Below the pieces are notes generated by a model. It saw only the letters and a list, made by a program, of their open reading frames with translations. It was not told the DNA's origin and made no database searches. From Oscillospiraceae bacterium (lineage in GTDB: Bacteria > Bacillota > Clostridia > Oscillospirales > CAG-272), in contig SVRZ01000001.1 in NCBI GenBank assembly GCA_015064555.1, forward strand, positions 1-64,000: a stretch of 64,000 bases of DNA, in the 5' to 3' direction. Of this stretch, positions 1,919 through 20,661 are shown piece by piece. Made by a program: the position numbers and the translations under genes. Positions within the stretch are counted from its first letter, which is position 1; each line of letters starts with the position of its first letter.

Positions 1919-2944
1919 TCAGGGCTCCGAGGGCTCAGACTGCTCGATCTTCTCCCACGCAGCATAAAGCTCGAGGTCGGAAAGAACGGGAGTGAGGTCG
2001 GTGAAGGCACTCATGGTCGCTGTATTTACCGCAGACTTTGTGTACCAGCCGACGAATTTATATCCGTCACGGGTGGCGGTAGGGATATCCGCACCGCACG
2101 CGGAAAAGTAATTACCGTTTGGAACGGTGAACACCGCCTGGCTTACGCTGAGGGCGGCGGAGTTATCTCCGGGGGCATTCTTGTAGAAGGTGACTGTATG
2201 AGTCATTGAGCCTGGAGTAAGGTCTACGACGGTCTCCCATGCTCCGAATGATTTTTTGTAGATTATCAGGTTGGTGGTGTCGAAACAGAAATCTCCGTCA
2301 TTTCCCTCGGATGCCGCAGGCTTTTCGACCGCGGTGAACCATGTGGGCGGATTCGCAAAAACGAATTCCTCACTCTCGGTGCCGTCCGTGTATATAAGCT
2401 TGATGTAATAGTAGCCGTTTGCATTGTAGCCGGAATCGACCGTTTCAACGCCTCTTCCATCCGCACCGTCGACTCCGTCCTCACCGGGCTTTCCCTCGGG
2501 GATGAGGAAGCGGTGCACGCTCTCGTTATCCATCACGAACACTATATACTTATCGCCGGTCTCGGGATCCTCCTCCTCGCTGACTCTTGCAACGGCAGAT
2601 CCGTCGGGAATGGAAAAGGATATAGGCTCCTCCCCCGGATCGGTGAAGGTTATAACTATGTCGGTCTGCTTCTTTTCGTCATCGTGGCTGTAGGTGACAT
2701 CGTCTATTCCGTTACCGCGCTCACCTGCGTCGCCCTGCTCTCCCTTCGGGATGACGAATACGGTGGGATCTATCATATCGTCACTGTAGCTTATGACGAT
2801 CAAGGTGCTTCCGTCCTCCTGGGGCTTTGCCGTTACCGAGCTTATAACAAGCTCCTCCTCGGCAAAGAAGCTGCCGCATCCGCTCAGCATAAGCACCGAT
2901 AAGAGCATTGCCGCAAGGCATACTGCCGATATTATTTTTTTCAT
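1919..2944 (-). CDS. Secreted lipoprotein with collagen-like Gly segments and a C-terminal InlB/Listeria-Bacteroides-type repeat
   Basis: Lipobox LSGCG; GEQGDAGERGNG, GKPGEDGVDGADGRG; GYKFVGWYTKS...LELYAAWEK. Confidence 0.75.
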   Translation of the reverse strand: MKKIISAVCLAAMLLSVLMLSGCGSFFAEEELVISSVTAKPQEDGSTLIVISYSDDMIDPTVFVIPKGEQGDAGERGNGIDDVTYSHDDEKKQTDIVITFTDPGEEPISFSIPDGSAVARVSEEEDPETGDKYIVFVMDNESVHRFLIPEGKPGEDGVDGADGRGVETVDSGYNANGYYYIKLIYTDGTESEEFVFANPPTWFTAVEKPAASEGNDGDFCFDTTNLIIYKKSFGAWETVVDLTPGSMTHTVTFYKNAPGDNSAALSVSQAVFTVPNGNYFSACGADIPTATRDGYKFVGWYTKSAVNTATMSAFTDLTPVLSDLELYAAWEKIEQSEPSEP

Positions 2945-5400
2945 TTTTCGTACTCCTTTGCATTTGCTATGAGATCCTGCACGTTCGGGGATTCTCCGAA
3001 GAGATATCCGTTCTTCACAAGATTGAATCTGAACGGCTCAAAGCCGGTCACGGCAATAACCGTCTTAAGCACGGGACCCTTGATATCCGATATGATATCG
3101 TCCTTCTCGGGTTCCGGCATATTGAGATATGAGTCGAGCAAACCGACACTGAGCGTGCCTCCGATATTGCTCTCTTCATCATCGAGATCAAATTTCACTA
3201 CCGAAAGGTTCGCGCCGCCGCCATAATACGCAACCGTCGCGTTGATGTAGGAATTGCCGCTCTCGGGATCGCGATATACCGTGCCCTGCGAGCCTGCGCG
3301 TGACATAAGCATCGAACGAAGCGGGAATATCGTATCGACCGTTATATCAATGCCACCGGTGGTGCCGATGACCTGATTTGCTATCATTGAGAAGTTTTCC
3401 TCTATAAGACCGCCGAGATCGAATCCCTCGGAGGACTTGTAATCGTAAAAGCGGGTGCTTCCCTTCACCTCAACGGTGACGGGGTATGCAATACCCGAGA
3501 CGCCCTTGGCAACATACGGAACGAGCGCCTTGCCCTGGCTGTCCTTCGCCATCAGCATACCGCCGAGTGTCTCTCCGAACATCGACGCCGAGCCCTCCTC
3601 GAGGAACGGACTGTTGAAAAGACTCTCCATACATATCGAAGAAATGCCGCTACGATAGAAATAAGTGTCCTCTACGGTCGCGGAGCCGTCATAGGCGAGT
3701 GTTTTACCGCCCGTGGAATTAAGCGCGTCCTGCATAGCTTCAAGCGCGCGACGCATGCTTGCCCTTTCGGCATCGTTCTTGCAATATTCGAGAAGGAACC
3801 GATTGAGAAGCGCATCCGCATCACCGTCGGGCTTTATGAACTCGCCGATCAGCATATCCTTCTGCGTGCCGTCCAGCATCTCGAAGGTGGCAACCGCATC
3901 CTTATCCATCGGCAGGTATTTATTCGAGCCGGTGAGGAACAGGAAATTACGCGCATTTGACAAAAGGCAATTCTTTACAGTGAGATCCTTCGAGGAGAAG
4001 CTCCTTATCACGTTCTTTCCGTTTGATATCCTCGAATTGATGACGGTGATACCGTCGCCGTAAACCTCAAGCACGGTGCCTACGGTATCCATATTCGCCA
4101 TTCTGTCGCCGAAATCGCAGTTCTTGATATTTACGTCATTGACCGTGATGCCGTCACCGTCAACGTACATACCGATATTATCCTGACCGTAAAGAGAGAT
4201 CAGGGGCAGATTGTTCGGATCTCCGAGGCAGTAGAGCTTGAGCGGACCGCGGAAAAGATTATCTGCGGTGAGCTCGGGAATACGGACTCCGTTCTGAGTC
4301 GAATAGGAGTATGGGTAGGTGAGATTATGGAGATTGATCGTATAGCCGTTTCCGTAGAAGTCCTTCTGCACATGCAGACCGACATACAGGCTATCGCTCA
4401 CAGGCGAATATCCGCGGTTATTCTTCGCAAACTCGTTCCACTGCTCTATGAACTCGGTGTTATAGGTCGTTCTGAAGCTGTAGACGTCGTCCGGGAAGGA
4501 GAACCTGCCCGTCTTTGTGTCATAGTAGCCGAAGCACTCGACGTTATTTGCCTTGCGGAGAAGCTTTCCGTCCGTCACCATCGGCTTTCCGTCCGAGCCC
4601 AGAACATAGGAATTCTCAAGCGACTCAAAATGGCGCCTGAGGACTACTATCTCGCCCTCTGCGCTTCTGTTGGTGCAGTTGAGAAGATCGTCATAGTTAT
4701 AGACGTTCACCCCGTCCTCAACTATATTGAAGCTATATGTCACGGGGGCGGCAACGCCGTCCTTAGCCCTGACCGTTATATATGCATCTCCGGGAGCAAG
4801 TATATACGCCTTGCCCGTGGATATGTCATAGCTCACGTTATCGCTCGTTTCGGCATATAGCGAGCCGTATATTCCGGCAGGCAGAGCGCGAAGCGTCATA
4901 TCTATGACAGCCGCCTCACCCCTTTTATGATCGTACTGACCGTAATAGACGGTAGAGTCTATATTACTCTGAGAGCTGCCTTCGGTGGGATACATAAGTA
5001 TCGCGGCATCCTTGTATATAACTGCGGTGAGTGAGCGGTAAACGTTACCCTTGGCGTTGCTGCAGGTGACGGTGACCTCTCCGGCTCTCAGTGCGCGCAG
5101 GTAGTATGAGCCCGATTTTTCAACGACCTCGGCATACGGCTCATCGGTGCCGTCCTTGTTTTTGACGCTCCATACGAGCGCACTGCCTCCGGAGACCTCA
5201 TAATGCCGCTGGTTAACGCCTACAGCCCTCAGCGAATACAGGTTCTCCGATATCTCAAACGCCTCCATATCGTTGTAATCCCAATCGATAAAGGATATAT
5301 CAACGTCCACCATATTGTAGGTGGTGTTGATGGTAACGATGCAGAATACCGATATCAGAAACGGAAAGAGAAGGAGGATGATCAGATTTTTCTTTTTCAT
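2941..5400 (-). CDS. Large membrane-anchored extracytoplasmic protein, probable parallel beta-helix
   Basis: MKKKNLIILLLFPFLISVFCIV N-terminal TM; repeated short beta-rich motifs (VNDVNIKNCDFGD, ITVINSRISN, LTVKNCLLSNARN). Start assigned at 5400, overlapping the stop of the upstream gene (TGATG). Confidence 0.65.
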   Translation of the reverse strand: MKKKNLIILLLFPFLISVFCIVTINTTYNMVDVDISFIDWDYNDMEAFEISENLYSLRAVGVNQRHYEVSGGSALVWSVKNKDGTDEPYAEVVEKSGSYYLRALRAGEVTVTCSNAKGNVYRSLTAVIYKDAAILMYPTEGSSQSNIDSTVYYGQYDHKRGEAAVIDMTLRALPAGIYGSLYAETSDNVSYDISTGKAYILAPGDAYITVRAKDGVAAPVTYSFNIVEDGVNVYNYDDLLNCTNRSAEGEIVVLRRHFESLENSYVLGSDGKPMVTDGKLLRKANNVECFGYYDTKTGRFSFPDDVYSFRTTYNTEFIEQWNEFAKNNRGYSPVSDSLYVGLHVQKDFYGNGYTINLHNLTYPYSYSTQNGVRIPELTADNLFRGPLKLYCLGDPNNLPLISLYGQDNIGMYVDGDGITVNDVNIKNCDFGDRMANMDTVGTVLEVYGDGITVINSRISNGKNVIRSFSSKDLTVKNCLLSNARNFLFLTGSNKYLPMDKDAVATFEMLDGTQKDMLIGEFIKPDGDADALLNRFLLEYCKNDAERASMRRALEAMQDALNSTGGKTLAYDGSATVEDTYFYRSGISSICMESLFNSPFLEEGSASMFGETLGGMLMAKDSQGKALVPYVAKGVSGIAYPVTVEVKGSTRFYDYKSSEGFDLGGLIEENFSMIANQVIGTTGGIDITVDTIFPLRSMLMSRAGSQGTVYRDPESGNSYINATVAYYGGGANLSVVKFDLDDEESNIGGTLSVGLLDSYLNMPEPEKDDIISDIKGPVLKTVIAVTGFEPFRFNLVKNGYLFGESPNVQDLIANAKEYEK

Positions 5401-6992
5401 CAGTATTGAGTCTCCAGATCCATAAACCATGCATCCATATTGCGCCACACGTTAATAAATACGGGGATACCTATGCCGATGAATATCAGAGCGCCAAACA
5501 GGCATATAAGCCAGATGGGCACACCGACAAAGCTCAGGACGAGCCCCAGTGCTACGAACATGATGGGCAAAAGGTATGCGAACAGCGACGACATAAAGGT
5601 CGAGCGCGGCTTTGCGTGCCTTATGTGGAGCTCCTCACGCATTGCTATCAGGTCGAATACGAACAGGAGCACTGTCGAGAGAAGGAAGGCAAACAGGCAT
5701 ACCAGAGGGGATGCGGCTCTTCCGATAAGTATTACCAGAATAGATATTACAAGCGCCGTCTCCGACATAATGAACGGGATAAGCACCTTTATTATCAGCT
5801 GCCGCTTCGGGCTTATGGGAATTGTTTTAAGGTTTTTTATGGTAGACGCCTCCATCGAGATATAACGGTTGGCACCCGAGCTTATAATGAGTGTTACCAT
5901 CATAACGAGGAAAACGCTTATCATCGACGTGAAATCCGGGAACAGGCTGACGTAATACATAAACGTTCCCGAGGTGAAGATGGTGCTCATGGCGACCACT
6001 ATGAGATAAAGCAGGAAGGGCTCGACCGCAAGAAGGCCCGAGAACGAGAATATGAAATCGGGATTCTTGGTTATAAGAGCAAGCTCCTTCAGGGCAAGGG
6101 CTATATTGACCTTGCGACCTCTGAATTTAAATATCCTCTCGCGCTGCTTCCTCTGAGGTGCAACGTGACGGATATAGCCGTACATAAATACGGTAACTGC
6201 GGTGCCCAGAATGAAAATTCCGAGCGATATGCAAACATAAGGCGTCATTTTCAAGCGTGAGCCCTTTATGAAGAAATCAACCAGGAAGTTGATGGGCACA
6301 AGCCTTGACGTTATTTTCGAGATCTTGGTTATCGATTCGTCGGTAAATATGAGGTTCAGATCGTTATTCGCGACCATATCCACAAATGCCGACAGAACTA
6401 TCGAATAGATGGTAGCTCCGGCAAATAGCAGGACTACCGCCACGGCAAACTCCAGCGCAACGTGCTTTTTCAGGTACTCTATAAGAAGCCATACGGGATA
6501 AACGAGAAGAAGTGCAACACCCACCTCAAAGAGGAAGGACGCGACAGGGTAAAAGATAGCCATATAGAAGAACCAGGCAGTCTTTCTGAATATTATTCCG
6601 TATGCGGTGAATATCGGAAAGGTGAAAAGAAAAGCAGTCGCATAGTGGTTCAGGAAAAGGAATATCAGCTTTGACGATATCATCATACCGTCGCTGACCG
6701 GATGATTGGCAAGCTGATCGATATCCTTCTTGTTGAAGAAGAGCTTCATCGCCTTCAAAACACCGTTTGCCATCATCAGCACCGAGATTACCGCCAGAAA
6801 CAGGCAGGTGAAGGTCTCGGGAGCGCCGCTGTAGCTTTTGATCTTCGTGAGGATAGCAGAGAACAGGAATACCTCTATAGCGATTATCAGCGCGGTCATT
6901 ATCACGCTGAAAATACCGTCCAGAAAACGGCGCGCCTTGCTTTTTCCCGTGGAAAACAAAAGCTTGAAATCCTTAATAAGCAGGGTAAGCAT
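5400..6992 (-). CDS. ABC transporter permease (ABC-2-like exporter)
   Basis: MLTLLIKDFKLLF start and many hydrophobic segments; directly follows an ABC ATPase with TGATG stop/start overlap. Confidence 0.8.
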   Translation of the reverse strand: MLTLLIKDFKLLFSTGKSKARRFLDGIFSVIMTALIIAIEVFLFSAILTKIKSYSGAPETFTCLFLAVISVLMMANGVLKAMKLFFNKKDIDQLANHPVSDGMMISSKLIFLFLNHYATAFLFTFPIFTAYGIIFRKTAWFFYMAIFYPVASFLFEVGVALLLVYPVWLLIEYLKKHVALEFAVAVVLLFAGATIYSIVLSAFVDMVANNDLNLIFTDESITKISKITSRLVPINFLVDFFIKGSRLKMTPYVCISLGIFILGTAVTVFMYGYIRHVAPQRKQRERIFKFRGRKVNIALALKELALITKNPDFIFSFSGLLAVEPFLLYLIVVAMSTIFTSGTFMYYVSLFPDFTSMISVFLVMMVTLIISSGANRYISMEASTIKNLKTIPISPKRQLIIKVLIPFIMSETALVISILVILIGRAASPLVCLFAFLLSTVLLFVFDLIAMREELHIRHAKPRSTFMSSLFAYLLPIMFVALGLVLSFVGVPIWLICLFGALIFIGIGIPVFINVWRNMDAWFMDLETQY

Positions 6993-8089
6993 CAGGTACT
7001 GCTCCTATAGATGTCCATAAAGATTTTTGAAAGCTGTATACGTCTGTTGGGATCGCGGTTAAGGTCGTACAGCGCGGCAACCTTACCGTCGTTTATTATT
7101 GCAACTCTGTCGCAAAGCCTTGCAACAAGGTCTATATTGTGCGAGGTGACGAAAACCGTCTTTCCGTGATTTGCATACTCACGCATCATAAGCTTGAGCT
7201 CCTCTACCGCCATGATATCAAGTCCGACGGTGGGCTCGTCGAGTATCCAGACCTTTGGATTATGGAGCAGGCTTGCGACAAGGCATAGCTTCTGCTTCAT
7301 ACCGTGTGAATAGTCGCTCGCGGGGTTGGCAAGCTCGCGCTCGTCGAGCTTAAGACGCGAGCAGAGATATTTGTAATTGCTGACGAAATCGCCCTCGGAC
7401 AGCTGATATATATTGGCTATGAACTCAAGATAGTCGTAGCCCGACATTACCTCATAGCAGGAGGGCTCACTGGCTACGTAGCCAAACGAGCGCTTTGCAT
7501 CGAGGCTCTGCTCCTTGACGTCGAAGCCGGCAAGACTTATACTTCCGGCATCGTATCTCTTGGAGCCTATAACACAGTCTATCGTGGTCGATTTACCTAT
7601 ACCGTTTTTACCTATGAAGCCGAAAAGCTCGCCCTCGTAAACGTCGAGATCGAGTCCCTTCAGGACCTTCTTCTCTCCGTATGCCTTATGGAGTCCTCTT
7701 ATCGATATCATAGGGGTGCGGCCGTCGGGATTTTTGACAACAGGAGCGGAGGGCTTTTCCTCTTCGGCAGTGTCGGCGGTCTGCGGCTTCCCGGCTTCGG
7801 CGCGCTCTGCTTTAGCCTTTTCGGCTTCGGCAGCCTTTGCCTCGGCGGCGAGCCTTTTCTTCTCTGCCTTCTCTGCCCTTTTCTTTTCGGTCTCTGCAGC
7901 CTTTGCCTCGGCGGCAAGCCTTTTCTTCTCTGCCTTTTCGGCATTTGCTGCTGCCTTAACCTTATCGGCCTCTGCCTTTTTTTCCTTAGCCTCGGCCTTT
8001 TTCTTTTCGGCTTCCGCCTTCTTTGATTCGGTATCGGCAGCCGCCGCGCTCTTCTGCGCGGCGCCGCCGTTTTCATTGATCATTAACAC
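6992..8089 (-). CDS. ABC transporter ATP-binding protein with a Lys/Ala/Glu-rich N-terminal extension
   Basis: Walker A GKNGIGKS, signature YSHGMKQKL, Walker B VWILDEPTVGLD; about 125 aa AEKKRLAAEAKAAE-type extension. Confidence 0.9.
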   Translation of the reverse strand: MLMINENGGAAQKSAAAADTESKKAEAEKKKAEAKEKKAEADKVKAAANAEKAEKKRLAAEAKAAETEKKRAEKAEKKRLAAEAKAAEAEKAKAERAEAGKPQTADTAEEEKPSAPVVKNPDGRTPMISIRGLHKAYGEKKVLKGLDLDVYEGELFGFIGKNGIGKSTTIDCVIGSKRYDAGSISLAGFDVKEQSLDAKRSFGYVASEPSCYEVMSGYDYLEFIANIYQLSEGDFVSNYKYLCSRLKLDERELANPASDYSHGMKQKLCLVASLLHNPKVWILDEPTVGLDIMAVEELKLMMREYANHGKTVFVTSHNIDLVARLCDRVAIINDGKVAALYDLNRDPNRRIQLSKIFMDIYRSST

Positions 8090-8098
8090 CTTAAAATC

Positions 8099-9346
8099 CT
8101 ACTTTCTGATTTTTCGGAACCAAACGTCATCGCCCTTGGAGTCAAGGAATACGTACTGAGAGCCACATTCGTTACAGGTGTAGATGCCCTTGCTCTCCGA
8201 TATCGCGCGAGCGCGGCAGACAGGGCAATATATGCTGTAGATCCTGTGCTCGAGCTTTGCAAGACGAAGCTTGCTCTCAAGCCAGCTTCTGACAAGATTC
8301 TTCTCCGAGGCGCATACGCGGACAGAGGCGGCATCGAGCGCGGTCAGTCCCCACAGCGACATAGACTCCTCCGAGTCATAGCTGCCGAGGATCTGCTCCC
8401 GGTTCTCCTCAACGTCATCAATACTGAATCTGAGAAGATGCTTCGCAGCAGATGCTCCCTTCGGCATAACCGTCATCGAAATAGCACCGTTTGCCACTAT
8501 TTCAAGCTCAATCGAGAAGTGCGCGCCCGAAAGCCTCAGCACGTCGTCACTCATATCGGTGCCGGCAGAGAGCTCGAAGCCCCTTTTCTTCACCGCCTTG
8601 AGTATAAGAAGCACGTAGTAGAGCATCAGGTCCGCCTTTATCGCCTCAACGTCCTCATAGCAGACGAAGCGGCGGTAGAAGCGGTAGCAATGGCAGTACA
8701 ATCTGTCCTTGGTGAGTATATTCGTCGGCTTTATTCTGCCCGAAATGGGCTTCTCGCGGCTGATGGTCTTATAGAAATACGTCCCCTTTATGAAGCGTAT
8801 CTTTCTTTTCAGCCTGTCAACCGTTATGATAAGATCGCCAACCTCGTTCTTCGGCAGACTTGCGCTTCGCGAATCGTAAGTCGGTAGCTTTGATACGTAG
8901 AAAGTGCTGTATTTGGTAAGCTCGCGGTCGACCATATCGATAAGCAGGCATACGAATTTATTTTCGTATATGCACATCTCGTCGATATGCTGATTATAAT
9001 GAACCTCCTCGGGTATCATCTCCATGCCGTGACGGTGCCAGAGCTTACTGTCGATAAGCACCTGGCGAAACTCGTCATTTCCGAGCGAGCCGACCTTTTC
9101 AACTCTGAGAACGACCTCCTCGGTCTTGTTGGAGATGTGAGGATGGTAGATTATAGATATTATAACGTTCAGCAGAGAGGTGACTGCGTGCAGAAACTCA
9201 ACGTCATGCTCCAACGAGGCATTCTGAAGCGAGATAAGCTCCATTTTTTCGATATCCGAGAAAAGAGCGGATACCGAGCGGCGTTTATTCAGCTTCAGCG
9301 ACTTGTGTATAAGGTCGTTGAGCTCTGCGGTTTCTATAAATCTCAT
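8099..9346 (-). CDS. Unknown protein with C-terminal zinc ribbon; possible DUF2357/McrC-like partner of the adjacent McrB-like ATPase
   Basis: CPVC...CNEC zinc ribbon at C-terminus; starts 1 nt after the stop of the McrB-like gene; family assignment rests mostly on context. Confidence 0.45.
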   Translation of the reverse strand: MRFIETAELNDLIHKSLKLNKRRSVSALFSDIEKMELISLQNASLEHDVEFLHAVTSLLNVIISIIYHPHISNKTEEVVLRVEKVGSLGNDEFRQVLIDSKLWHRHGMEMIPEEVHYNQHIDEMCIYENKFVCLLIDMVDRELTKYSTFYVSKLPTYDSRSASLPKNEVGDLIITVDRLKRKIRFIKGTYFYKTISREKPISGRIKPTNILTKDRLYCHCYRFYRRFVCYEDVEAIKADLMLYYVLLILKAVKKRGFELSAGTDMSDDVLRLSGAHFSIELEIVANGAISMTVMPKGASAAKHLLRFSIDDVEENREQILGSYDSEESMSLWGLTALDAASVRVCASEKNLVRSWLESKLRLAKLEHRIYSIYCPVCRARAISESKGIYTCNECGSQYVFLDSKGDDVWFRKIRK

Positions 9347-9347
9347 A

Positions 9348-11171
9348 TTACAAATTCTTTATGATGAACGAAGCGGTCCTTACAGATCTCTTCATTACAC
9401 CGTGACCGTAAGTCTTTTCAAGAAGCGATACAAGTCCCTCGAGAGAATCCTTGATGTGATCCTCGAATCTGCCCTCGAGCTTGGATATAAGCTTCTTGGA
9501 TATCATAAGGTCGATAGCGGTTTCCTTCTTGCCGCCCGCCGCAACGAATACGGGGACGATATTCTCTATCTGATTGAGTATACGGTTTCCGATAGCAACG
9601 TCAAACGCTTCGTACGCATACGCGAGCACCTTGTTAAGGCGCGTTCTGTCGGTATCGGTGAGCAGAAGCTCGGGATCCGAAAGAGCCTTGGTGTAAAGCG
9701 AACGAAGAGTCGAGTGGCTGAGGTTTATGGTAGGCGTTTGTGCCTCTACCTCAAACGGCTTGTTGTTCTCGGTGAAGTCCATGGTTATCGCACGGTCGTA
9801 AACCTTATCTGTAATAGTGAAGGTGGAATCGTCCTTGTTCGCAGTTCCTACGAAGTAGGAATTCTCGGGGATGCGCACGTATCCCTCCTCAAGCTTGATG
9901 GGAGGAACGAAGCCGAAGGGGAGCTGCATTACCTTGAGCTTCCACTCGGCAACAGGGTATTCGAGCACCGAGAGAAGGTCTGCAAAGTAGTACTCTACTC
10001 TCGATATGTTCATCTCGTCGAGAACGAAGATGTTGATCATATCGGGATTGTAGTTCGCCCTGTAAAGGCTTGAAAGAAATTCGGTTTCCGAATAGGTCTT
10101 TGAGAATTCATTGAAGAATCCGACAAGGTTGGTTTTATCCCTCCAGGTAGCCTGAACAGGCATAAAAAGTACACTACCGTTTACATATTTAGCGAAATAA
10201 CGGGGTAAAGAAGACTTACCTGTTCCGCTTAGTCCCTCGAGTATCTGGAAGTGAGAAGCCGCAAATCCCGATATAAAGAAGCGAATAACGTCTATATCGA
10301 AGTAGAGCTTTTCCTCCTTCGCAAGGTAATTTCTGAAGCCCTCGCAAAGAGCATCAAGGGTGGGTGTATCCGTCTTTTCGAGCTTTTCCTTGACGAATCC
10401 CTCATATTCAACGTCGATACGGGAGAGCTCGGGGAATACCTTCTCGCGGTCTGCGAGATTTTCGGTGTCCTTGACGACCATGTCACCCGAGCCGCCTTCT
10501 CCGCCGCCGTTTCCACCGTTTCCGCCCTTGCCGCCGGCGCCGCCTGTCTGATTTTCACCCTCGCCATCGCTCTTGACGTCGAACGAGCTCTTGACGTCAA
10601 GATCCGCCTCTATCTCATCGGCAAGAACAGGAGCCTTGTCCGAATCAAAGAAGCGATAGGGCTTGTCGACAAAGATGAAGTTGACAACGAGCATTACCAC
10701 CGAGCCTATCGCTATGAACAGCAGCACGTAAAGAAGCGTTGCAATAACGAGCGATTGACCGAGGAAGCTGAAGGTCAGACCGATATTTTCCGCGCTCCAG
10801 GGCTTCTGAAGAAGGAATCCGAAGCCTATCGAAAGAACAGCACAGGCAAAGAAGGTGCCCACGTAAACGCCGATCATCTTGGGAGCGAAGGTCTTTATTC
10901 CGTTTACGATAGCATATCTGCGCTCATAGCAGATAGCGCATATCATAAGGAGTATGTAGAAGTCAACGAGCACAAGGAAAAGGAATGCAGAGGTTCCCGC
11001 ATCTATCGGCTTGAAGCCGAATGCCCTTCCCAAGCCCGCTATGGGGTTCTTAGAGCTGATAACGCCGGATTTTGCATCGAGGCAGGCTCCGACAAACAGC
11101 AATATCATTGAGTAAAATACTGCGAGAGAGATCGTTATAAGATTCTTTCTCGTTATAAGCTTTTGAAACAT
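9348..11171 (-). CDS. McrB-like AAA+ NTPase with N-terminal transmembrane region
   Basis: Walker A LEGLSGTGKSSL, Walker B NIFVLDEMN, YYFADLLSVLE, VGTANKDDST (MNxxDR-like motif); about 4 predicted TM segments and a GGAGGKGGNGGNGGGEGGSG linker. Confidence 0.8.
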   Translation of the reverse strand: MFQKLITRKNLITISLAVFYSMILLFVGACLDAKSGVISSKNPIAGLGRAFGFKPIDAGTSAFLFLVLVDFYILLMICAICYERRYAIVNGIKTFAPKMIGVYVGTFFACAVLSIGFGFLLQKPWSAENIGLTFSFLGQSLVIATLLYVLLFIAIGSVVMLVVNFIFVDKPYRFFDSDKAPVLADEIEADLDVKSSFDVKSDGEGENQTGGAGGKGGNGGNGGGEGGSGDMVVKDTENLADREKVFPELSRIDVEYEGFVKEKLEKTDTPTLDALCEGFRNYLAKEEKLYFDIDVIRFFISGFAASHFQILEGLSGTGKSSLPRYFAKYVNGSVLFMPVQATWRDKTNLVGFFNEFSKTYSETEFLSSLYRANYNPDMINIFVLDEMNISRVEYYFADLLSVLEYPVAEWKLKVMQLPFGFVPPIKLEEGYVRIPENSYFVGTANKDDSTFTITDKVYDRAITMDFTENNKPFEVEAQTPTINLSHSTLRSLYTKALSDPELLLTDTDRTRLNKVLAYAYEAFDVAIGNRILNQIENIVPVFVAAGGKKETAIDLMISKKLISKLEGRFEDHIKDSLEGLVSLLEKTYGHGVMKRSVRTASFIIKNL

Positions 11172-11251: not shown

Positions 11252-12298
11252 TTATTCATCGGTATTGTCCTTAGCAGAGACATCTTTGCCGTCGGATAGC
11301 TCCTTCTCATCGGGGGGCTTTTCCTCGCCGGAGCGGGCTTTCACTTCGGAATCGGATACCGCTGCTGTGGCATCCTCCTCTTTTATCGGCTCCTCGGACT
11401 CAACCTCTGTCTTACTTATAAATTTTTTCTCGTTGAAGGTGTAAATAAAGTTTTTGAACCTTACGGTTTCAACAAATGAGCTTTCCAATTCATCATCGGG
11501 GACGGTTTCTCTTTTGAAATCAATAGAGCTTTCCAGAAAGGCGAGCCTATCCTCCTCCGCACGCGATATCTTATCGTTCACCCTATCGAGCATGATAAGG
11601 CAATATATCAGAGCAGCCATAGTCAGAATACCCGAATAGGACTGCAGGAACATAACGAAAAGACCTACCATATGAACGCTTTTTCCGGTATACTTACCGA
11701 TGACGTCATCAATGGTTGGGCGGTATTTATCATTGAGATTATTCGAGTCACCGCGCGTGACGTATCTTATACCGTCTGCGGTGTACTCAATGTCAACGAT
11801 TCGGTGGATAATATTATTTCCCTCATCGTTAACAAAGGCTATAACATCGTATTTTTTCAGCTCGGCGGTCGAATCGACCTTCTCCACAACTATCATATCG
11901 TAGGTGGGGATCTGATCGTCAAGACCTGCAAGATAGGTATTTTCCTCGTGCTTCTGGCTCATAGAGCCCGAAACGACTGCTATCATACCCTTATCAAAGA
12001 GCATAACCACACCGTTCTTCAGCTTGCTGACCACCGACAGTATAAGAAAGGGTATCAGAAGCGAAAGCGCGACACAGGATAGCACCTGCTTGATAACGGC
12101 AGATGCCTTACTCCATCTTCTGTTTTTTGCGATATTTTGCCAGATAGTGTCCTCTATCAGCTCAACGTCCTTTTGCCCCGATTCGAGCTCTGCCACCAGC
12201 GATGCGGCGTAGGAGCGATATAACAGTGTTATTATCGTCGCAAATCCCACTACGCCGACCGCCGAAACGAGCAGAGCGATTATTTCAAGGGATGTCAT
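11252..12298 (-). CDS. SipW-type (S26B, archaeal/ER-like) signal peptidase I
   Basis: VVSGSM catalytic Ser box, DVIAFVN...IIHRIV His box, TRGDSNN; followed by TM and a charged C-terminal tail. Confidence 0.85.
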   Translation of the reverse strand: MTSLEIIALLVSAVGVVGFATIITLLYRSYAASLVAELESGQKDVELIEDTIWQNIAKNRRWSKASAVIKQVLSCVALSLLIPFLILSVVSKLKNGVVMLFDKGMIAVVSGSMSQKHEENTYLAGLDDQIPTYDMIVVEKVDSTAELKKYDVIAFVNDEGNNIIHRIVDIEYTADGIRYVTRGDSNNLNDKYRPTIDDVIGKYTGKSVHMVGLFVMFLQSYSGILTMAALIYCLIMLDRVNDKISRAEEDRLAFLESSIDFKRETVPDDELESSFVETVRFKNFIYTFNEKKFISKTEVESEEPIKEEDATAAVSDSEVKARSGEEKPPDEKELSDGKDVSAKDNTDE

Positions 12299-12318
12299 TA
12301 CTTAGCGAGTCGCTTAAA

Positions 12319-13074
12319 TTACGGAGATGCGGTTATGGTTATTGTATACTCGGGAGCGGTATATTCGGTAGGGTTAGCGATATACTCGTCATAGCTTACA
12401 CCGCAAACGGTAGCTCTGAGAGTGTCAAGCTCACGCTTAACATTCTCCGAGGAAACTGCCTTTCCCGCAGCATCTTCATCGTAATATTCGCTGGGGTTTA
12501 ATCCGTTAAACTTCTCGCCCCACTCAAACTCAAGTCTGCAGGTGAGAACGCCTACCTTAACGGTGGAACCGCCACCGGTATCTCTATCCTCTACCTTGTA
12601 GCTCCAGCCGTCATCAAGAGAATGATCGGAGCTGTTCATACCGTTAACTATCAAAACCTGACTCTTTACCCATGCAGGAATCTTGATGTATCCTGCGGTC
12701 TCTGCTGCAAGAACGCCATCGGGTATTATCGAATCGATGGTGATGGTTGCAACAACGTCGAGATTGGTGAGCTCAACGAAGAACTCAACTGCAAGGTTCT
12801 CGGAATTCTCACCGTCCCAACGAACTCTTCCTGTGCTATCGTCTGCAAGGGGCTCGAAGTGTATTTCCTTCTTGTTATCAACATAGGTAACCTCGCTGAT
12901 GCCGATCTTAGCCTCGTTGGTTATACCGACGTTAACGTTTCCGCCGGCGTTTTTGCTAACCGATGTGGAAAGCACCCAGGTAGCAAAACCGGTTGCGGTA
13001 AGTGCGAGTGCTGTGAAAACAGCAACTCCGAAGACGATTATCTTCTTCTTAAATGAACTTCTTGTTAATCCCAT
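12319..13074 (-). CDS. Secreted protein with SipW-dependent (TasA/camelysin-like) signal sequence
   Basis: KKKIIVFGVAVFTALALTATGFATWVLS; RBS AAAGGAG; adjacent to SipW-like peptidase. Confidence 0.75.
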   Translation of the reverse strand: MGLTRSSFKKKIIVFGVAVFTALALTATGFATWVLSTSVSKNAGGNVNVGITNEAKIGISEVTYVDNKKEIHFEPLADDSTGRVRWDGENSENLAVEFFVELTNLDVVATITIDSIIPDGVLAAETAGYIKIPAWVKSQVLIVNGMNSSDHSLDDGWSYKVEDRDTGGGSTVKVGVLTCRLEFEWGEKFNGLNPSEYYDEDAAGKAVSSENVKRELDTLRATVCGVSYDEYIANPTEYTAPEYTITITASP

Positions 13075-13101
13075 TTTAATTCTCCTTTATCCGGGTTAAG
13101 A

Positions 13102-13833
13102 TCAGGCATTACCCTCGGTGCTGAAGGTAAGCTTGAAGGTAACGTCCGAAATAGCGGCGATTCCGCTGAGTGCAGCATCTGCCTCTGTAGCCTTCTCGGT
13201 GGAGTAAGCGAAGCTGTTGAAGTAATCGTAGGGGTTAGAGGGAGTGGTCTCTTCGGTCTTTGTGAAGTCGCCGCCCCATGAAAATTCTACGGTTACAACA
13301 AAATCCTGAGAAGCCTTGTTCTCATCAAATGCCTTCTTGGTGGTTACCTCCATAGCATCAGCTGCAGCCGATGCACCGTCGATCTTAACGGTGGTGTGAC
13401 CTATGTAGCCGTTGGTGGTAGCTGCCGCATATGCGTTGCCTGCATTGTCAACTATTTCAAAATCAACTACGAAATTCGAAAGGATCTCTGCAAGATCAAC
13501 GCCTGCTTCGCTGCCTGCCTTCGACTCAACCTTAACGTTAAAGGTTGCGGTAAGAACCTCGTTCTGAACGTCAGTTCCTGCATAAAGCCAAGGGTTGTTA
13601 ACCGACGAGGAAGCCGGCTTACCGAACTTGATTGCGGTGTTTTCAGAGGATACAAGAGTAATGGTAACGTCGTTATCCTCTACGGTGTAGACCTCAAACG
13701 AGCCGGTTGTTTCAACAGGCTCTGCGGGCTTGATGATAAGCCAGGATGCGAAACCTACTGCTGTGAGTGCAAGGCATGCTACGATGCTTGCGATTTTGAT
13801 TCCAAGTGATGTCTTAATTTTTCTGCGTGTCAT
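13102..13833 (-). CDS. Secreted protein with SipW-dependent (TasA-like) signal sequence
   Basis: MTRRKIKTSLGIKIASIVACLALTAVGFASWLII; start taken at the internal ATG at 13833 downstream of an AGAGG RBS. Confidence 0.75.
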   Translation of the reverse strand: MTRRKIKTSLGIKIASIVACLALTAVGFASWLIIKPAEPVETTGSFEVYTVEDNDVTITLVSSENTAIKFGKPASSSVNNPWLYAGTDVQNEVLTATFNVKVESKAGSEAGVDLAEILSNFVVDFEIVDNAGNAYAAATTNGYIGHTTVKIDGASAAADAMEVTTKKAFDENKASQDFVVTVEFSWGGDFTKTEETTPSNPYDYFNSFAYSTEKATEADAALSGIAAISDVTFKLTFSTEGNA

Positions 13834-13986
13834 AGTGTTTTCCTCTTTTCTTTCGCCACGGGGCTTTGCGATACCCCGGGGCATATTTTTTGTTTTTTGT
13901 TTTTGTTTTTTTGCTTTTGGACGTTTACTGAATTTTGCCTTGGGTATGTGCGATTTATTTAAAAGTATTTGCGCGTGGATTTGAAG

Positions 13987-14039
13987 TGCGCGATTGCGGT
14001 GCGCACATGCGCGGGCGCGGCGCGATTATTTGCGCCGCG
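13987..14039. repeat. Two tandem GC-rich hairpins in an intercistronic gap
   Basis: GTGCGC...GCGCAC (13987-14006) and CGCGGCGC-gattattt-GCGCCGCG (14016-14039). Confidence 0.7.
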
Positions 14040-14071
14040 TGCGCATATTTGAAGAAGTATCTGATATCTGA

Positions 14072-17000
14072 TCAGACGTAACCGTGCTTGACGAGGTAAT
14101 GCTCAATGTAAGCAACGATCTTTTCGAAGGTTATGTGTCCCTTTCCGACGGCTATCTTGAAGTACTGAGCCTGGAACATATTGTATACCTCCTCGGGGAT
14201 ATACTCCGCGAAGTCCTCATATGTGTAGAGTCCGTACTTTTCTATATCAGCCTTCATCTGCTCGGCATCGTAGTTAAGATCGCTGTCATATTCAAACATA
14301 TTGAATATACCGTCTATACCGCCGGGTATCGAAAGCATTCCGTCGATGAGATAGTTAAGATGATATACGGTTACCAAGCTGTAGCAGCCTGTGTACTCAA
14401 CCGTTACGTAAGCCTCCTCGAGAGTTACCGCGGTGAATCCGTCACCGTCCGCCATAGCGAACTCGTGACCTACGAAGTCCTCACAGTTACCCTCGGTGAT
14501 ATATACGTATCTGCCGAGCGTCATATCAAAGAGCGCGTGCTCGTAGATAAGTCTTGTAACGATTCCGTTCGAGAATCTGAGATTGATGATGCTGTATTCC
14601 ATCCAGCCGTCATCCTCAATGAAGATGATGCCCGCCTCAACGAATCTGCCGCTCTCATGGTCGTAAACCAGAAGGACATCATCCATTGTAAGCTCCTCAA
14701 CCGGCTTGACGCTTCCGTCTGCCAGAGTGATAAGAGTACCTGCGGCGATACAGCTTCCGTCACTACCGACAAGGGTTACCGATCTAGCTGTGGTAATTTG
14801 CTCGTATGCAGACAATCCGCTCTGCGATTTTGAATTACTGGGCTCGATCTTGACATATTGACCACTCATTACGTAGAAGTACTTCGTGCTGACTGCACTA
14901 TCGGTTACAGACGTATTGGATATTTCGTTGGTTCCATCAAGACTGAGTCTTACCGTATAGGTAGGAATCTTGCCTGAAGAAGCGTCACCATCTACACCCT
15001 TCTCTGTGATTACCTCAATAACTATTTTTTCCTTCCAATCGGGATAGATGGTCATCGTTCCGTCGCCCGAGTCGGTTACGGTCAGACTGTCGGTTATCTG
15101 GCCGGTCTTCGCTGAATCCAGATAGCATACAGTGCTGTACTCCGGGAACGTTAGGTCGTAATTGTACTCATTCACCCATTCGTCTATAACACTGAGTGCA
15201 ATATTCGTAGAGTGTATGTACCAGCGATGTGAACTCGTGCCATATGCCGAAGGAATATTAAGTACAACCTTGACCTTGCTTGCCATATTTGCAACCAGCA
15301 CTACAGAAGTATTATCGGCAAAGAGTGCGTAAAGGTCATCATCGGTAACTATAGTTGCGCTACCGAACTTCCAGCCGCCAAAGTACTTGTTGGTTGCGGT
15401 ATTGTCATCCTGTGCGGATGCCATCGAGAAGTAGGAGCTGTCAGAACCGGGTAACGGGTTATCAATGAAGTCTGTCTTTGCAGTCTTGATCTGTTCGGGA
15501 TTCAGATAAATCACAGCACCTGTGAACTGAACCCTGGTGCCGACAATGTCGGTTCCGGAATCTGCAATTGCCTGAAGCTGATATTTATCAGCCCAAACAC
15601 CGGAGATATCAAGGACGTTATCCTGCCATAATTCGGGAGGAACTACGCCGTTTTCAATCTTGACTCCGCCAACCTCCCAATGCGAGAAGTATCTGGTAAC
15701 ATTGATATCTTCATCCTTAGCAATTGCTGTTTTCGTATACTCTATGATTATTGCTTCGATCTGACTCTGAATTACATATTCGGTCTTGCTGAAGCTTATC
15801 GCATTTGTGCTTGCACCCGAGTTACCCGAAATGTTGAGAACGTACTTGTTCTCCCATACCGCGGTAACGGTGAGTGCACCGTCTGTGAACATACTCGGCG
15901 TGATAACGATTATCTCGTCACCCGAGGAATCAGTCCAACGGCTGAAGTACTTGTTGGTATCTCTTGCAAGATCATACTGCTTCGCCTGAGCTTCGTAGGG
16001 CTTGATATAATTTTCAAACGCCTCCGCGATCTGAGATTCCACAACGTAAACAGTTCCTGTAAGAGTTATAGGATTGACGCCGGCACCCGAGCTTCCGGTA
16101 ACCGTGATAATATTCTTATCGCCGAAGGTTGCTTCGACTGTAAGCTTCTTATCAACGAAATCGGAGATCGAGATGCTGTCCTTACTCCATCCGGTGAAGA
16201 ATCTGGATGTGGCAATGTTCGTATCCTGTGCCTGTGCCATCGTTCTATAGGACTCAGCGTTTTCAAGGTAGGGTATATTGAGGTATTCGCTTATCGCCAT
16301 GCTTATCTGACTTTCATGCAGGTAGATAGTGGGAACCGTTACCTGTACTCTGGTTCCGATAGCAGCGGCGCCCGAATCGATCAGGACGGTCAGTGCGTAC
16401 TTATCGGCATATTCTGCCGTAAGTGTAAGTGCACCGTCGTCTCCGAAGTACTCATTTTTAAGTCCTGCGGTTAGATCATACTCGGTATTACCGTTCTCGG
16501 TATCTATGAAGCGGAGGAAGTACTTGCTGATCTCTGTGTTGAGATCGGATGCACTTGCCTGTGCCACATATTCGTTCATTATAGTCGCATACTGAAGATG
16601 TGAAACGTAGATGTTGGTTATGTTAATGTCTATTCCAAGTCCGTTGCTTGCCACTATATTGAGAACCTTCTTTGCTGACGAGCCTGCGGTAAGCTCAAAT
16701 CTCGCTCCGTCCTCTGCATCCGCAGGGATAACGTCAGCAAGAGTCGTTACCTCTGCTCCGTTATAGAGCCAATGGTCGTAGCAAAGCTGCTTTGTTATAT
16801 CATATGCATCCACGCTGATAGGCAGAGGAGCTTCCTCTCTCTGAGTCGCCGCGTAGATCTGCTCTGTCGTGCTTCCGTCCGGATACGTGTAAACCACGTA
16901 ATACCTGAGCTTGGTCCATTCTCCACGGATGGTAACGGTTACGTTATCCTCATTCGGTACGGAGAAGTAGGAGAGTAACTCAATTCCGGAAAGGGTAGTC

Positions 17001-19861
17001 TTTGCAATTCTTGAATTGCCCGAATACCAGCCCGCGAATGTGTAATCATCAATCAGAGCTTCAATAGCAAGGCTTACGTTTTCATCAAGTGCCGTTACGC
17101 TTGTGGGAAGCCCCGCAGTCTTATCGCTTGCCGGAGTATATCCGTTATGCGTGTAGGTGATGTTGTAGGTTATAACATCCCACTTAGCATAGAGTGTTGT
17201 GTCTGCGAATATTCTGGCATTTGCCGCGGGATTCGTTAATTCCGCATCGAGATACCAGCCGCCAAACTTGTAATACTGCCTGGTGGGTACGGTCAGATAG
17301 GAGCTGTCAAGCACCAGACCGTCCGAATAGATTCCGCCGATATCCTTCGCGGAGAGGGATGTTCCGCCATTTGAGTTATATGTTATCCTTATGTTGTCTG
17401 CCGCGCATCTCCAATAATACGTGCTGCCGGATCTATAAGCCGTATAGGCTGTGCCGGTATTGAAGGGCGCAAGCGTTACACCGTCATAGATAACGCCGGT
17501 TGCCCTCATAAGAGTTGCGGCATTCAGTGCCTCTGCATTTTCAACTGCAGCACCGCTGATGGTCGTAGTGTCGTTTGAGAATACCGCCGCAAGATAGTTT
17601 ACTTCCTTGCTGACTATAAGGACGGTTATAGTCATCGTTGCGCTCTCGGTACCGACGATCTCGGGGGAGTCGACGGTATTGCTTCCGCTCACATTCAGGC
17701 GCGCGCTGCTTGATATAGGGCTGACTACACCGCCGAGGTTTACAATCCTCAGCTCGCCTTCTATTCCGAGGTATCCGTCGCTCTCATTTAAAACAACTGT
17801 ATACTTACCCTTCGTGGGAGTGTCCTTTTGCGCCGCAGCCGGCTTGTATTTCGTGCCTACTATCAGGTTGTAATCCTCGTGGTTTGTAGTACCCGTGGGA
17901 TCAAGAATTATCTTTGTTGATTCATAGTCGTAAACCGCTATCGAGGAAGCATTCATGATAACGTTCTCACCTATGGTGAGTCTTCCTCCGGGCAGGACCT
18001 TGATTCCCTGTCCCGTAGCATCTATCGTAGCGCGATTACCGTTCTCATACTCATTGAAGGATACGTCCCAGTTATAGGAAAGCGGGAAGAGCGCTTCAAC
18101 AGTCGAAAGCTTAACGACGATTATCGCCGTAGTTATAGATGCATCCTTCTCTATCTTCAACGATATAACAAGAGGATTCATCTTGGCATCTCCCTTGATA
18201 TCAAGATCTATGCGGCTGATCAGGGGATTGCTTTCATTGTAATTGAATTTAGCCTCAGCCACAGCATTGTTCTGAAGCTGCATTATACTGGTATCCAGCC
18301 TTCCGAGCAGATCAACGGTGGTTTCATTATTCACACCGTCTGCATAGAGGTTTACGTATCCGTAAAGCTGAGCAGCGCTTTCAACGCGCATTTTAGCGGT
18401 CGCCGATTGAACGAAGAATCGGTTGAAGGGGAAGCATTCCACGTTAGCAATATAGGGATCGGTCTCTCTTCCTACACCAACGTATTTTGAAAGCTCTTCA
18501 CCCGTAGCGCCCGACATTCCAAGGAAGGTCGATCCGCCTCGATGCTCTATCATTGTGAACATACTCGTGAAGTCACCGCGCTCGAGCCATATGCGGGATC
18601 CGTTATCCGCTGCCGCCTCGTCTATAAAGCCGTAGCACCATATCTTTGAGGAATCCGTAGCATTATGAAGCTCAGCGCCCGTGGCAAGTGATATCTTTGC
18701 ATGTACACCGACGGTAACAGAGTTAAACATCTGCTGTGCGCCTCCGCCCGTAATAACACCGGAAACTATTATAGTTCCGTTGTTCGTGAGAGTAGCGCCA
18801 TCGCCTATGTGAAGTGTATTTTTGGTAGTGTTCGCCGTCATTCTGGCATTTCCGCTGGCAGTGCTTACAAGCTTTCCGTTACTGTATGAGGCATATGCCG
18901 TACTGCTTGTATCTACTGTCGGTATCTCCAGCGTTACACCGGCAGCAACCGTGCTGTCAGAGGTTATCGAATGATTGAAATGGTTTCCGGACGCGTAGGT
19001 CGTTCCACCGTAGGTGAAGGACTGCATCGGCACGACCTTCGCACCGCTCGCCGTAACAGCGCCGAGGGCTGTGGATATATCGGCATAATATTTGGTTCCG
19101 GATGAGGTGGTCGCGTAGGTCGTTCCCAGAAGAGTATACGGAATGGCAAGCTTGTTATCGTTTGCTTTGCTGTAGCCGTCCTCACCGTCGGTGTTTATGT
19201 AATAATTAACATCCGAGTATGTGTAGTAATATTGCTTGGAAACGTTTACGGTAGCAGGCTGTCCGTAATCCGAAATTCTCGATGAAATGGTGACACTCTT
19301 CGAGGTCGCATATCCACCCGGAGCGGTCAGCGACAGGCTTATCTGAGCATTCTTTCCCGCAAAAAGCACCGTATTTTCGGGAATGGTGACAGTCAGCGCC
19401 CGCTTCTCAACCGTGAATACGTGGTTCTCGCAAACGACCTGACCTGTTGCTTTCTCAATTATTTTATAATAATGCTTGCCCGCGTATATACCCGCCTGCG
19501 CAACGTTCGCGCTCGCGAGCTTTCCCTGCGTCGGGTTATCGTATCCGCTATCATCACGCAGAGTGTAGGCGTAAAGCTCTGCCTCGAAATAATCATCAAA
19601 GCTACCGCTTGTTATTCCGTAGACTATTTTACCCGCGTCCGTGAGCGCGAGAGCGACCTTTTCACCGTCATAGATCTTAGAGGTCGTGAAGGATGCACTC
19701 GTATCTACCGGAGGAAGTGTAACGCTCGGTACACTATCCGGATTCGTGGTAACCGTTTTGTTATTCCACTTGACAATCAGCCACGAGGAAGCGCCGATTA
19801 CCGATAACAGAAGTGCCGTTATAGCCACCGCCAAAAGCGATAGCGAGAGATGCTTTCTCAT
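14072..19861 (-). CDS. Giant (1929 aa) secreted protein: SipW-type signal, beta-rich body, InlB-like repeats, C-terminal Hint (Hedgehog/intein) domain
   Basis: MRKHLSLSLLAVAITALLLSVIGASSWLIV; ITYNSNGG...YKFGGWYLDAELT...LYAKWD; CIAAGTLITLADGSVKPVEELTMDDVLLVYD...CYSLVTVYHLNYLIDGMLSIPG. Confidence 0.85.
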   Translation of the reverse strand: MRKHLSLSLLAVAITALLLSVIGASSWLIVKWNNKTVTTNPDSVPSVTLPPVDTSASFTTSKIYDGEKVALALTDAGKIVYGITSGSFDDYFEAELYAYTLRDDSGYDNPTQGKLASANVAQAGIYAGKHYYKIIEKATGQVVCENHVFTVEKRALTVTIPENTVLFAGKNAQISLSLTAPGGYATSKSVTISSRISDYGQPATVNVSKQYYYTYSDVNYYINTDGEDGYSKANDNKLAIPYTLLGTTYATTSSGTKYYADISTALGAVTASGAKVVPMQSFTYGGTTYASGNHFNHSITSDSTVAAGVTLEIPTVDTSSTAYASYSNGKLVSTASGNARMTANTTKNTLHIGDGATLTNNGTIIVSGVITGGGAQQMFNSVTVGVHAKISLATGAELHNATDSSKIWCYGFIDEAAADNGSRIWLERGDFTSMFTMIEHRGGSTFLGMSGATGEELSKYVGVGRETDPYIANVECFPFNRFFVQSATAKMRVESAAQLYGYVNLYADGVNNETTVDLLGRLDTSIMQLQNNAVAEAKFNYNESNPLISRIDLDIKGDAKMNPLVISLKIEKDASITTAIIVVKLSTVEALFPLSYNWDVSFNEYENGNRATIDATGQGIKVLPGGRLTIGENVIMNASSIAVYDYESTKIILDPTGTTNHEDYNLIVGTKYKPAAAQKDTPTKGKYTVVLNESDGYLGIEGELRIVNLGGVVSPISSSARLNVSGSNTVDSPEIVGTESATMTITVLIVSKEVNYLAAVFSNDTTTISGAAVENAEALNAATLMRATGVIYDGVTLAPFNTGTAYTAYRSGSTYYWRCAADNIRITYNSNGGTSLSAKDIGGIYSDGLVLDSSYLTVPTRQYYKFGGWYLDAELTNPAANARIFADTTLYAKWDVITYNITYTHNGYTPASDKTAGLPTSVTALDENVSLAIEALIDDYTFAGWYSGNSRIAKTTLSGIELLSYFSVPNEDNVTVTIRGEWTKLRYYVVYTYPDGSTTEQIYAATQREEAPLPISVDAYDITKQLCYDHWLYNGAEVTTLADVIPADAEDGARFELTAGSSAKKVLNIVASNGLGIDINITNIYVSHLQYATIMNEYVAQASASDLNTEISKYFLRFIDTENGNTEYDLTAGLKNEYFGDDGALTLTAEYADKYALTVLIDSGAAAIGTRVQVTVPTIYLHESQISMAISEYLNIPYLENAESYRTMAQAQDTNIATSRFFTGWSKDSISISDFVDKKLTVEATFGDKNIITVTGSSGAGVNPITLTGTVYVVESQIAEAFENYIKPYEAQAKQYDLARDTNKYFSRWTDSSGDEIIVITPSMFTDGALTVTAVWENKYVLNISGNSGASTNAISFSKTEYVIQSQIEAIIIEYTKTAIAKDEDINVTRYFSHWEVGGVKIENGVVPPELWQDNVLDISGVWADKYQLQAIADSGTDIVGTRVQFTGAVIYLNPEQIKTAKTDFIDNPLPGSDSSYFSMASAQDDNTATNKYFGGWKFGSATIVTDDDLYALFADNTSVVLVANMASKVKVVLNIPSAYGTSSHRWYIHSTNIALSVIDEWVNEYNYDLTFPEYSTVCYLDSAKTGQITDSLTVTDSGDGTMTIYPDWKEKIVIEVITEKGVDGDASSGKIPTYTVRLSLDGTNEISNTSVTDSAVSTKYFYVMSGQYVKIEPSNSKSQSGLSAYEQITTARSVTLVGSDGSCIAAGTLITLADGSVKPVEELTMDDVLLVYDHESGRFVEAGIIFIEDDGWMEYSIINLRFSNGIVTRLIYEHALFDMTLGRYVYITEGNCEDFVGHEFAMADGDGFTAVTLEEAYVTVEYTGCYSLVTVYHLNYLIDGMLSIPGGIDGIFNMFEYDSDLNYDAEQMKADIEKYGLYTYEDFAEYIPEEVYNMFQAQYFKIAVGKGHITFEKIVAYIEHYLVKHGYV

Positions 19862-19905
19862 AGGCTGCTGCTCCTTTCTTAGATTTTCGACTGTTTATAT
19901 AGCTC

Positions 19906-20661
19906 TCAGTTGGTCTTTTCCACCCATGCTGTGGACACAAATTCGGTGCCCGCCTTATCTCCGCTTGCCTCCCGGAGATATCTGCCAAGACAATGCCTGA
20001 AGTTTGCCGGAATATCAGATCCCGTAAGATTCTTTGGTATCGAGAAGGTATACACCACCTTGATATCCTTCGTGCCGGTGGAGGCAAGCCCTGTAAGAGT
20101 TGTGTCTATATTAAGTATTTTGCCTTCGATGTTTGTTATCGTTTTGCTCGCCCCATCAACCGTTGCCGTTATCGCGTACGAATATTTATATGCATCGTGC
20201 GCGATGGTGTTATTCATCGAGGTATTGAACAGCTTACCGTCATTAACATCCCTGACGTTTTTCGCAAGAAGCGAAAGGTGCAGGTCAAGACTGCCGTTCC
20301 AATCATTTCCAAAGCTTGACTTGCAATTTGCAAGATTTATGCGGTAGGTAACCGATATCTTTCCCGAATCTGTCAGGTTACCGCTTGCATCAACAAAGCT
20401 CTCTGCCCTGTAATCAAATATCTCAACGTCGCCGTAGAGATAAACGAGATCGGTCGAATGAGCGACACCGTATGAATGAAGCTCACCTGTCGCGGTCGTA
20501 TTCATCCCCGAGGGAGCAACAATTATCCAGGATGAAAATCCGATGCTCACCATCGTCATGCAGAAGAGAAGCGGCATAGCAAGCATGAGCGATCTGAGTC
20601 TTTTCATTGTGCTTCTCGACTTTTTTCTTTTCTTTCCGGTTGATTTGATCTCACCGTACAT
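19906..20661 (-). CDS. Secreted protein with SipW-dependent (TasA-like) signal sequence; first gene of the operon
   Basis: MKRLRSLMLAMPLLFCMTMVSIGFSSWIIVAPSG; RBS AAAGGAGG upstream of the 20661 ATG. Confidence 0.72.
   Translation of the reverse strand: MYGEIKSTGKKRKKSRSTMKRLRSLMLAMPLLFCMTMVSIGFSSWIIVAPSGMNTTATGELHSYGVAHSTDLVYLYGDVEIFDYRAESFVDASGNLTDSGKISVTYRINLANCKSSFGNDWNGSLDLHLSLLAKNVRDVNDGKLFNTSMNNTIAHDAYKYSYAITATVDGASKTITNIEGKILNIDTTLTGLASTGTKDIKVVYTFSIPKNLTGSDIPANFRHCLGRYLREASGDKAGTEFVSTAWVEKTN

Follow-up and report, generated by a model that had tools for sequence, protein, structure and literature searches.

In an uncultured Clostridia-type bacterium from the gut, a giant secreted protein ends in a Hint (Hedgehog/intein-type) domain followed by a conserved helical tail. 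These two parts form one module, found again on hundreds of secreted proteins that are otherwise unrelated; the obligate tail and this recurrence go beyond what a first-pass annotation of the same DNA had noticed. Judging from sequence, we favor with moderate confidence the reading that the module is a C-terminal autoprocessing element, which would form a thioester before its first residue, Cys1, and then release the ectodomain or transfer it to an acceptor, without splicing.

The carrier gene and its locus

Within the window, which is the whole stretch of 64,000 nucleotides that was analyzed, the carrier gene sits in a cluster of SipW-type secreted proteins that has its own signal peptidase (11252-20661, minus strand):

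19906..20661, minus strand: small secreted protein with a SipW-type signal, upstream neighbor of the carrier
14072..19861, minus strand: secreted carrier protein of 1,929 amino acids, its reading frame open throughout 1,929 codons
13102..13884, minus strand: small secreted protein with a SipW-type signal, downstream neighbor of the carrier
12319..13074, minus strand: small secreted protein with a SipW-type signal, near the carrier
11252..12298, minus strand: SipW/archaeal-type signal peptidase I, matching TIGR02228 above its cut-off

The carrier starts with the SipW-type signal MRKHLSLSLLAVAITALLLSVIGASSW and has an InlB-type B repeat at residues 826-893 (Pfam PF09479, E 1e-10). Its C-terminal 226 residues, beginning at the Cys codon 14750-14752, are the Hint domain and the helical tail. 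Elsewhere in the window, a series of large proteins without Pfam matches (1919-11171, minus strand) flanks an ABC ATPase (6992-8089), and an InlB-repeat protein lies within this run at 1919-2944. At locus L046, a SipW that is 56% identical adjoins another Hint carrier.

The C-terminal domain has a Hint fold

The module and its flank comprise the following features, numbered from Cys1 where residues are given:

14753..14782, minus strand: linker immediately upstream of Cys1, Ser/Gly-rich in relatives
14321..14752, minus strand: Hint domain, module residues 1-144, delimited by an AF2 model, structure matches and profile matches
14750..14752, minus strand: Cys1, the presumed thioester-forming residue, found in 91/91 family sequences
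14615..14617, minus strand: Glu46, the putative equivalent of the Hedgehog general base D303/D46 (numbering of PMC9163320)
14537..14539, minus strand: His72, the block-B histidine, found in 91/91 family sequences
14318..14386, minus strand: block F/G region CYSLVTVYHLNYLIDGMLSIPGG, with His131 retained and Ile-Pro in place of His-Asn
14075..14320, minus strand: helical tail of 82 amino acids, with invariant or near-invariant D169, Y173, G174, L175, K204 and G205

By predicted fold, Cys1 and block-B His, the window domain is confirmed as a member of the Hint superfamily. When the window sequence is searched alone, Pfam gives a weak match to PF01079 (E 0.04-0.08, under the curated cut-off), and the alignment covers the Hint part only, not the tail. 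Hint identity is nonetheless settled, because both the profile of the relatives and the predicted structure match Hint. A 13-member family profile matches BIL2 of Tetrahymena (6y75/6tmm) with an E value of about 1e-5, and a relative from Pumilibacter muris (L065) exceeds the Pfam Hint cut-off (46.9 vs 29.7 bits). The AlphaFold model of Hint and tail has a pLDDT of 92.7, and Foldseek matched it to inteins, BIL and Hedgehog with E values down to 4.5e-8. In VIA-align, residues 1-145 of the model superimpose on inteins, BIL and Hedgehog with Z of 15-19, including BIL2 (Z 19.1) and Hedgehog 1at0 (Z 18.3), these two over 136-138 residues with an rmsd of 2.0 A. The Hint fold that had been proposed for the carrier's C-terminus is thus supported by predicted structure.

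Residues at the upstream junction and active site

Residue counts refer to an alignment of 91 family sequences, of which 35 remain after thinning at 60% identity. The patterns used in the scan for relatives contained neither Cys1 nor His72. Both residues are kept in all 35 thinned sequences, and they are invariant even between members that are only about 35% identical. Reading of the ORF agrees with the first-pass annotation that codon 14750-14752 is a Cys that starts CIAAGTLITLADGSVKPVEELTMDDVLLVYD. This Cys is the very start of the domain and directly follows a variable linker. Among the 10 residues preceding it, Ser is enriched 2.2 times and Gly 1.4 times, and hydrophobics are depleted, a composition that would fit an exposed, flexible junction.

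The C-terminal block CYSLVTVYHLNYLIDGMLSIPGG is present as originally described, ending in the window as ...LIDGMLSIPGG, without His-Asn. C-terminal His-Asn occurs in 0/91 family sequences, most of which have Met-Pro at those positions. His131, at or adjoining the block-F His, is retained in 80/91, and position 143, which is the Cys of SCYA in Hedgehog, is Pro in 72/91. Because the terminal His-Asn is missing, canonical splicing is excluded, and the earlier judgment that full splicing is unlikely extends to the whole family. A canonical intein or type A BIL is rejected on the same count.

Position 46 is acidic in 71/91 sequences, and 19 of the remaining 20 have a His within a few residues. An acidic residue near this position is also frequent in inteins. 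On the tree, this alternation of acid and His amounts to only 4-7 changes, and after correction it is not significant. It could be a real swap, since D303H in Hedgehog has been characterized as a working replacement of the general base (PMC9163320).

The strongest argument against activity is the absence of the block-B Thr, which in inteins aids step 1 (PMC4031507). At this site, three residues ahead of His72, the window has Ile and the family has Ile (68), Val (13), Ala (5), Ser (3), Met (1) or Asn (1); Thr is found in 0/91, where TxxH is usual but not universal in the Hint superfamily. However, inteins tolerate wide variation of the active site (PMC7664689), so the missing Thr is not decisive against activity.

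The helical tail is an obligate partner of the Hint domain

The first-pass annotation had the length of the 82-codon tail right. The tail (14075-14320) is no incidental extra; it proves to be conserved and inseparable from Hint. Its conservation is close to that of the Hint part (mean information of 2.54 vs 2.67 bits, with 2.83 in the core). Among 341 class genomes, 20/20 strong tail matches sit immediately after a strong Hint match, and each strong Hint match has a tail. Because the two are never apart, they constitute one module. Of the weak Hint matches that lack a tail, those inspected include other kinds of intein or BIL, with His-Asn in L129 and L133.

Modeled alone, the tail is predicted to be a helical unit (pLDDT 87.8). 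It is acidic, and aromatics make up 17% of its residues vs 10.7% in the ectodomains. Tail profile searches against Pfam and PDB gave only chance-level matches, and Foldseek of the tail alone against PDB returned nothing, so that no known ligand-binding fold is resembled. With no PDB structural match, the fold is unassigned and is not claimed to be new. As a partner of Hint, this 82-residue helical tail is previously undescribed in the literature searched.

Distribution and carriers of the module

The source genome encodes a second copy of the module, 45% identical to the first. The gene for this second Hint carrier (G000:C40 75323-75985; L002 946-1449, minus strand) is followed by one for a small protein with a SipW-type signal. 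Within the family, 13/196 genomes carry the module, the source genome included, and carrier genomes have 1-3 copies each. A scan of species genomes found at least 232 stretches encoding relatives, mostly in MAGs of uncultured Clostridia-type bacteria from animal guts, and 78 of these loci were read. Farther afield the module is rare: the remaining 397 genomes in the phylum sample gave no match at E 1e-12. Records titled Paludibacteraceae, Saccharibacteria and Corallococcus likely reflect MAG labels, not real hosts.

The module is the last part of every carrier, with at most about 50 residues beyond it. Carrier N-termini are of the Sec, SipW or type IV pilin type, and the proteins are otherwise unrelated: InlB-repeat, subtilase, lipase-like, SLH, camelysin-like and pilin-signal carriers all occur. 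At two loci (L029 6299-10672 and L070 6116-10672), giant proteins pair a type IV pilin methylation signal with the Hint module, an unusual combination. SipW-type genes lie beside the module in a minority of loci only. Clustering of neighbor genes gave just generic ABC-type proteins, at 11 loci, and no recurrent neighbor. Because no neighbor gene is common to the loci, the module seems self-sufficient.

A sister module in phage contigs

In three IMG/VR contigs, tail-fiber-like proteins have at their C-terminus a Hint domain that lacks His-Asn and, after it, a conserved tail of their own of about 65 residues:

L141, 1327-1947: phage sister module
L147, 3613-6615 (same as L142): phage sister module
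L145, 5001-5618: phage sister module

The carriers of these modules are collagen-like as well as tail-fiber-like. A profile-to-profile comparison of the phage and bacterial modules gave a probability of 99.8% and an E value of 5e-29 over columns 1-196, which reach into the tail; the phage Hint-plus-tail is thus a sister of the bacterial module. Searches of PHROGs with a few members and of annotated phage genomes gave no real match. Two further viral contigs (L144 from 2493 and L146 from 5001) encode one protein with a tandem pair of Hint domains, each ending in His-Asn.

Proposed mechanism and alternatives

In the autoprocessing reading that we favor, Hint and helical tail would together cap the end of secreted proteins. 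Once the protein is outside the cell, Cys1, aided by His72, would attack the preceding peptide bond and produce a thioester. Lacking a C-terminal Asn and a following nucleophile, the module undergoes neither splicing nor C-terminal cleavage. The thioester might instead be resolved by an acceptor that is positioned with the help of the tail, which would leave the ectodomain covalently attached, or by water, which would set the ectodomain free. The invariant Cys1 and His72, the flexible junction, the lack of C-terminal chemistry and the obligate partner together fit an N-S acyl shift and then cleavage or transfer, the course taken by Hog domains and type B BILs, and we infer that these steps may occur here. 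The position of the module at the end of very different carriers, the lack of another C-terminal anchor and of a shared neighbor gene, and the acid or nearby His at position 46 also speak for this reading. Release of the ectodomain or its covalent ligation, as the first-pass annotation had suggested, is a possible outcome. Several facts count against autoprocessing: a general sorting system would be expected to have more than 1-3 copies per genome, the tail is unlike any known ligand-binding fold, and the block-B Thr is absent in all 91 sequences.

The autoprocessing reading divides into two sub-cases of equal weight, covalent transfer and self-release, each of which is possible but by itself somewhat unlikely. 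In the first, self-catalyzed covalent anchoring, the tail would bring in an envelope nucleophile (lipid, glycan, peptide or fiber subunit), to which the ectodomain would be transferred without sortase, much as Hedgehog ends up covalently attached to cholesterol. The combination of Hint with an obligate C-terminal partner parallels that of Hint with SRR/ARR (PMC2362128), and the aromatic-rich tail is also consistent with anchoring. So is the finding that the 78 carriers have no other C-terminal anchor, in that no convincing LPXTG and no C-terminal membrane helix were found in them. Within the family, sortase is rarer in the genomes that carry the module (3/13 vs 108/183, p 0.018), although in the class sample the trend is not significant (5/13 carriers vs 182/328, p 0.26); with both samples combined it has p 0.024, uncorrected for kinship. 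Against anchoring, an acceptor candidate is lacking, SLH domains are already present in one of the scanned carriers, and the sister module resides on phage tail-fiber-like proteins, which need no wall anchor.

Because of these phage sisters, a role in folding and self-removal stays alive beside anchoring. In this second sub-case, the module would aid folding or attachment of its carrier and then hydrolyze itself off, much as some phage tail fibers lose self-cleaving C-terminal chaperone domains. The sister Hint-plus-tail likewise ends collagen-like, tail-fiber-like proteins, many bacterial carriers are long and fibrous, and hydrolysis requires no specific acceptor. However, subtilase and lipase-like carriers do not need a fiber chaperone, and a Hint domain of 144 residues is an elaborate means to plain hydrolysis.

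The module might instead be an inactive Hint fold that serves with its tail as a structural or binding cap, as the loss of the block-B Thr throughout the family and of block G would suggest. We regard this as rather unlikely, since it explains poorly why Cys1 and His72 are invariant at about 35% identity and why Cys1 stands at the very start of the domain. A pre-toxin HINT of a polymorphic toxin, with the tail as toxin, is very improbable: the carriers are secreted and two relatives (L065 and L067) give weak PT-HINT scores, but the reading is rejected because a single tail is conserved across members and not exchanged, with no recurring immunity gene downstream. Least probable of all is a degenerate intein remnant or assembly artefact, which the missing splice residues might suggest but which is refuted by the conservation of more than 200 copies on unrelated carriers, two of them in the source genome.

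If the module is active in autoprocessing, uncultured gut bacteria would process the C-termini of unrelated adhesins and exoenzymes by self-catalysis, without a dedicated enzyme. It would then become testable whether bacterial surfaces use acyl transfer of the Hog type, and whether the two-part design of Hog has a bacterial or phage parallel. Active modules might also supply protein labeling with new small domains that form thioesters.

Comparison with known systems

BIL domains on secreted proteins are already in the literature (PMC2362128, PMC3403396, PMC4031507). The literature searched holds no description of the Hint-plus-tail family, and no curated Pfam model covers it; NCBIfam was tried on one member and PHROGs on a few. 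Burglin described in 2008 (PMC2362128, additional files 16-17) a group of secreted bacterial proteins, which Dassa and Pietrokovski had been the first to see, that end in a divergent Hint. These resemble the present carriers in having a signal peptide and a divergent C-terminal Hint; however, by their description they are set apart, since the members listed come from myxobacteria and gamma-proteobacteria and have an N-terminal region in common. PT-HINT (PF07591) likewise places Hint ahead of a C-terminal domain on secreted proteins, but in the present module that domain is uniform and there is no immunity gene.

The best solved match by both profile and fold is BIL2 of the Tetrahymena BUBL1 locus (6y75, 6tmm), which has a C-terminal Asn143 and a block-B Thr, whereas the module has neither. 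Type B BILs are defined by having no similarity to intein block G (PMC4031507). The module shares with them the lack of block G, its location on bacterial proteins and the expected N-terminal cleavage, but differs in its obligate, conserved C-terminal tail, in always forming the protein end and in the loss of the block-B Thr.

Hedgehog Hog (PF01079) is also C-terminal on a secreted protein and also consists of Hint and then an obligate partner of similar size. The two agree in the spacing of Cys1 and block-B His (1 and 72) and in the absence of a terminal His-Asn. They may also agree at the D303 site, where the module mostly has an acid or a nearby His, but the alternation is not significant on the tree. 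Unlike Hog, the module has no block-B Thr (Thr69), has mostly Pro at position 143 and no SCYA, has a tail without detectable kinship to SRR, and is bacterial, with no known sterol link. We suggest only tentatively, and consider it unlikely, that bacteria here have their own version of Hedgehog autoprocessing, in which a self-contained Hint-plus-recognition unit would covalently fix adhesins and exoenzymes made by gut Bacillota to a specific envelope molecule without sortase, the acceptor being chosen by the tail. Judged by sequence, the module would work in the manner of Hog or of type B BILs, and membership in neither is claimed.
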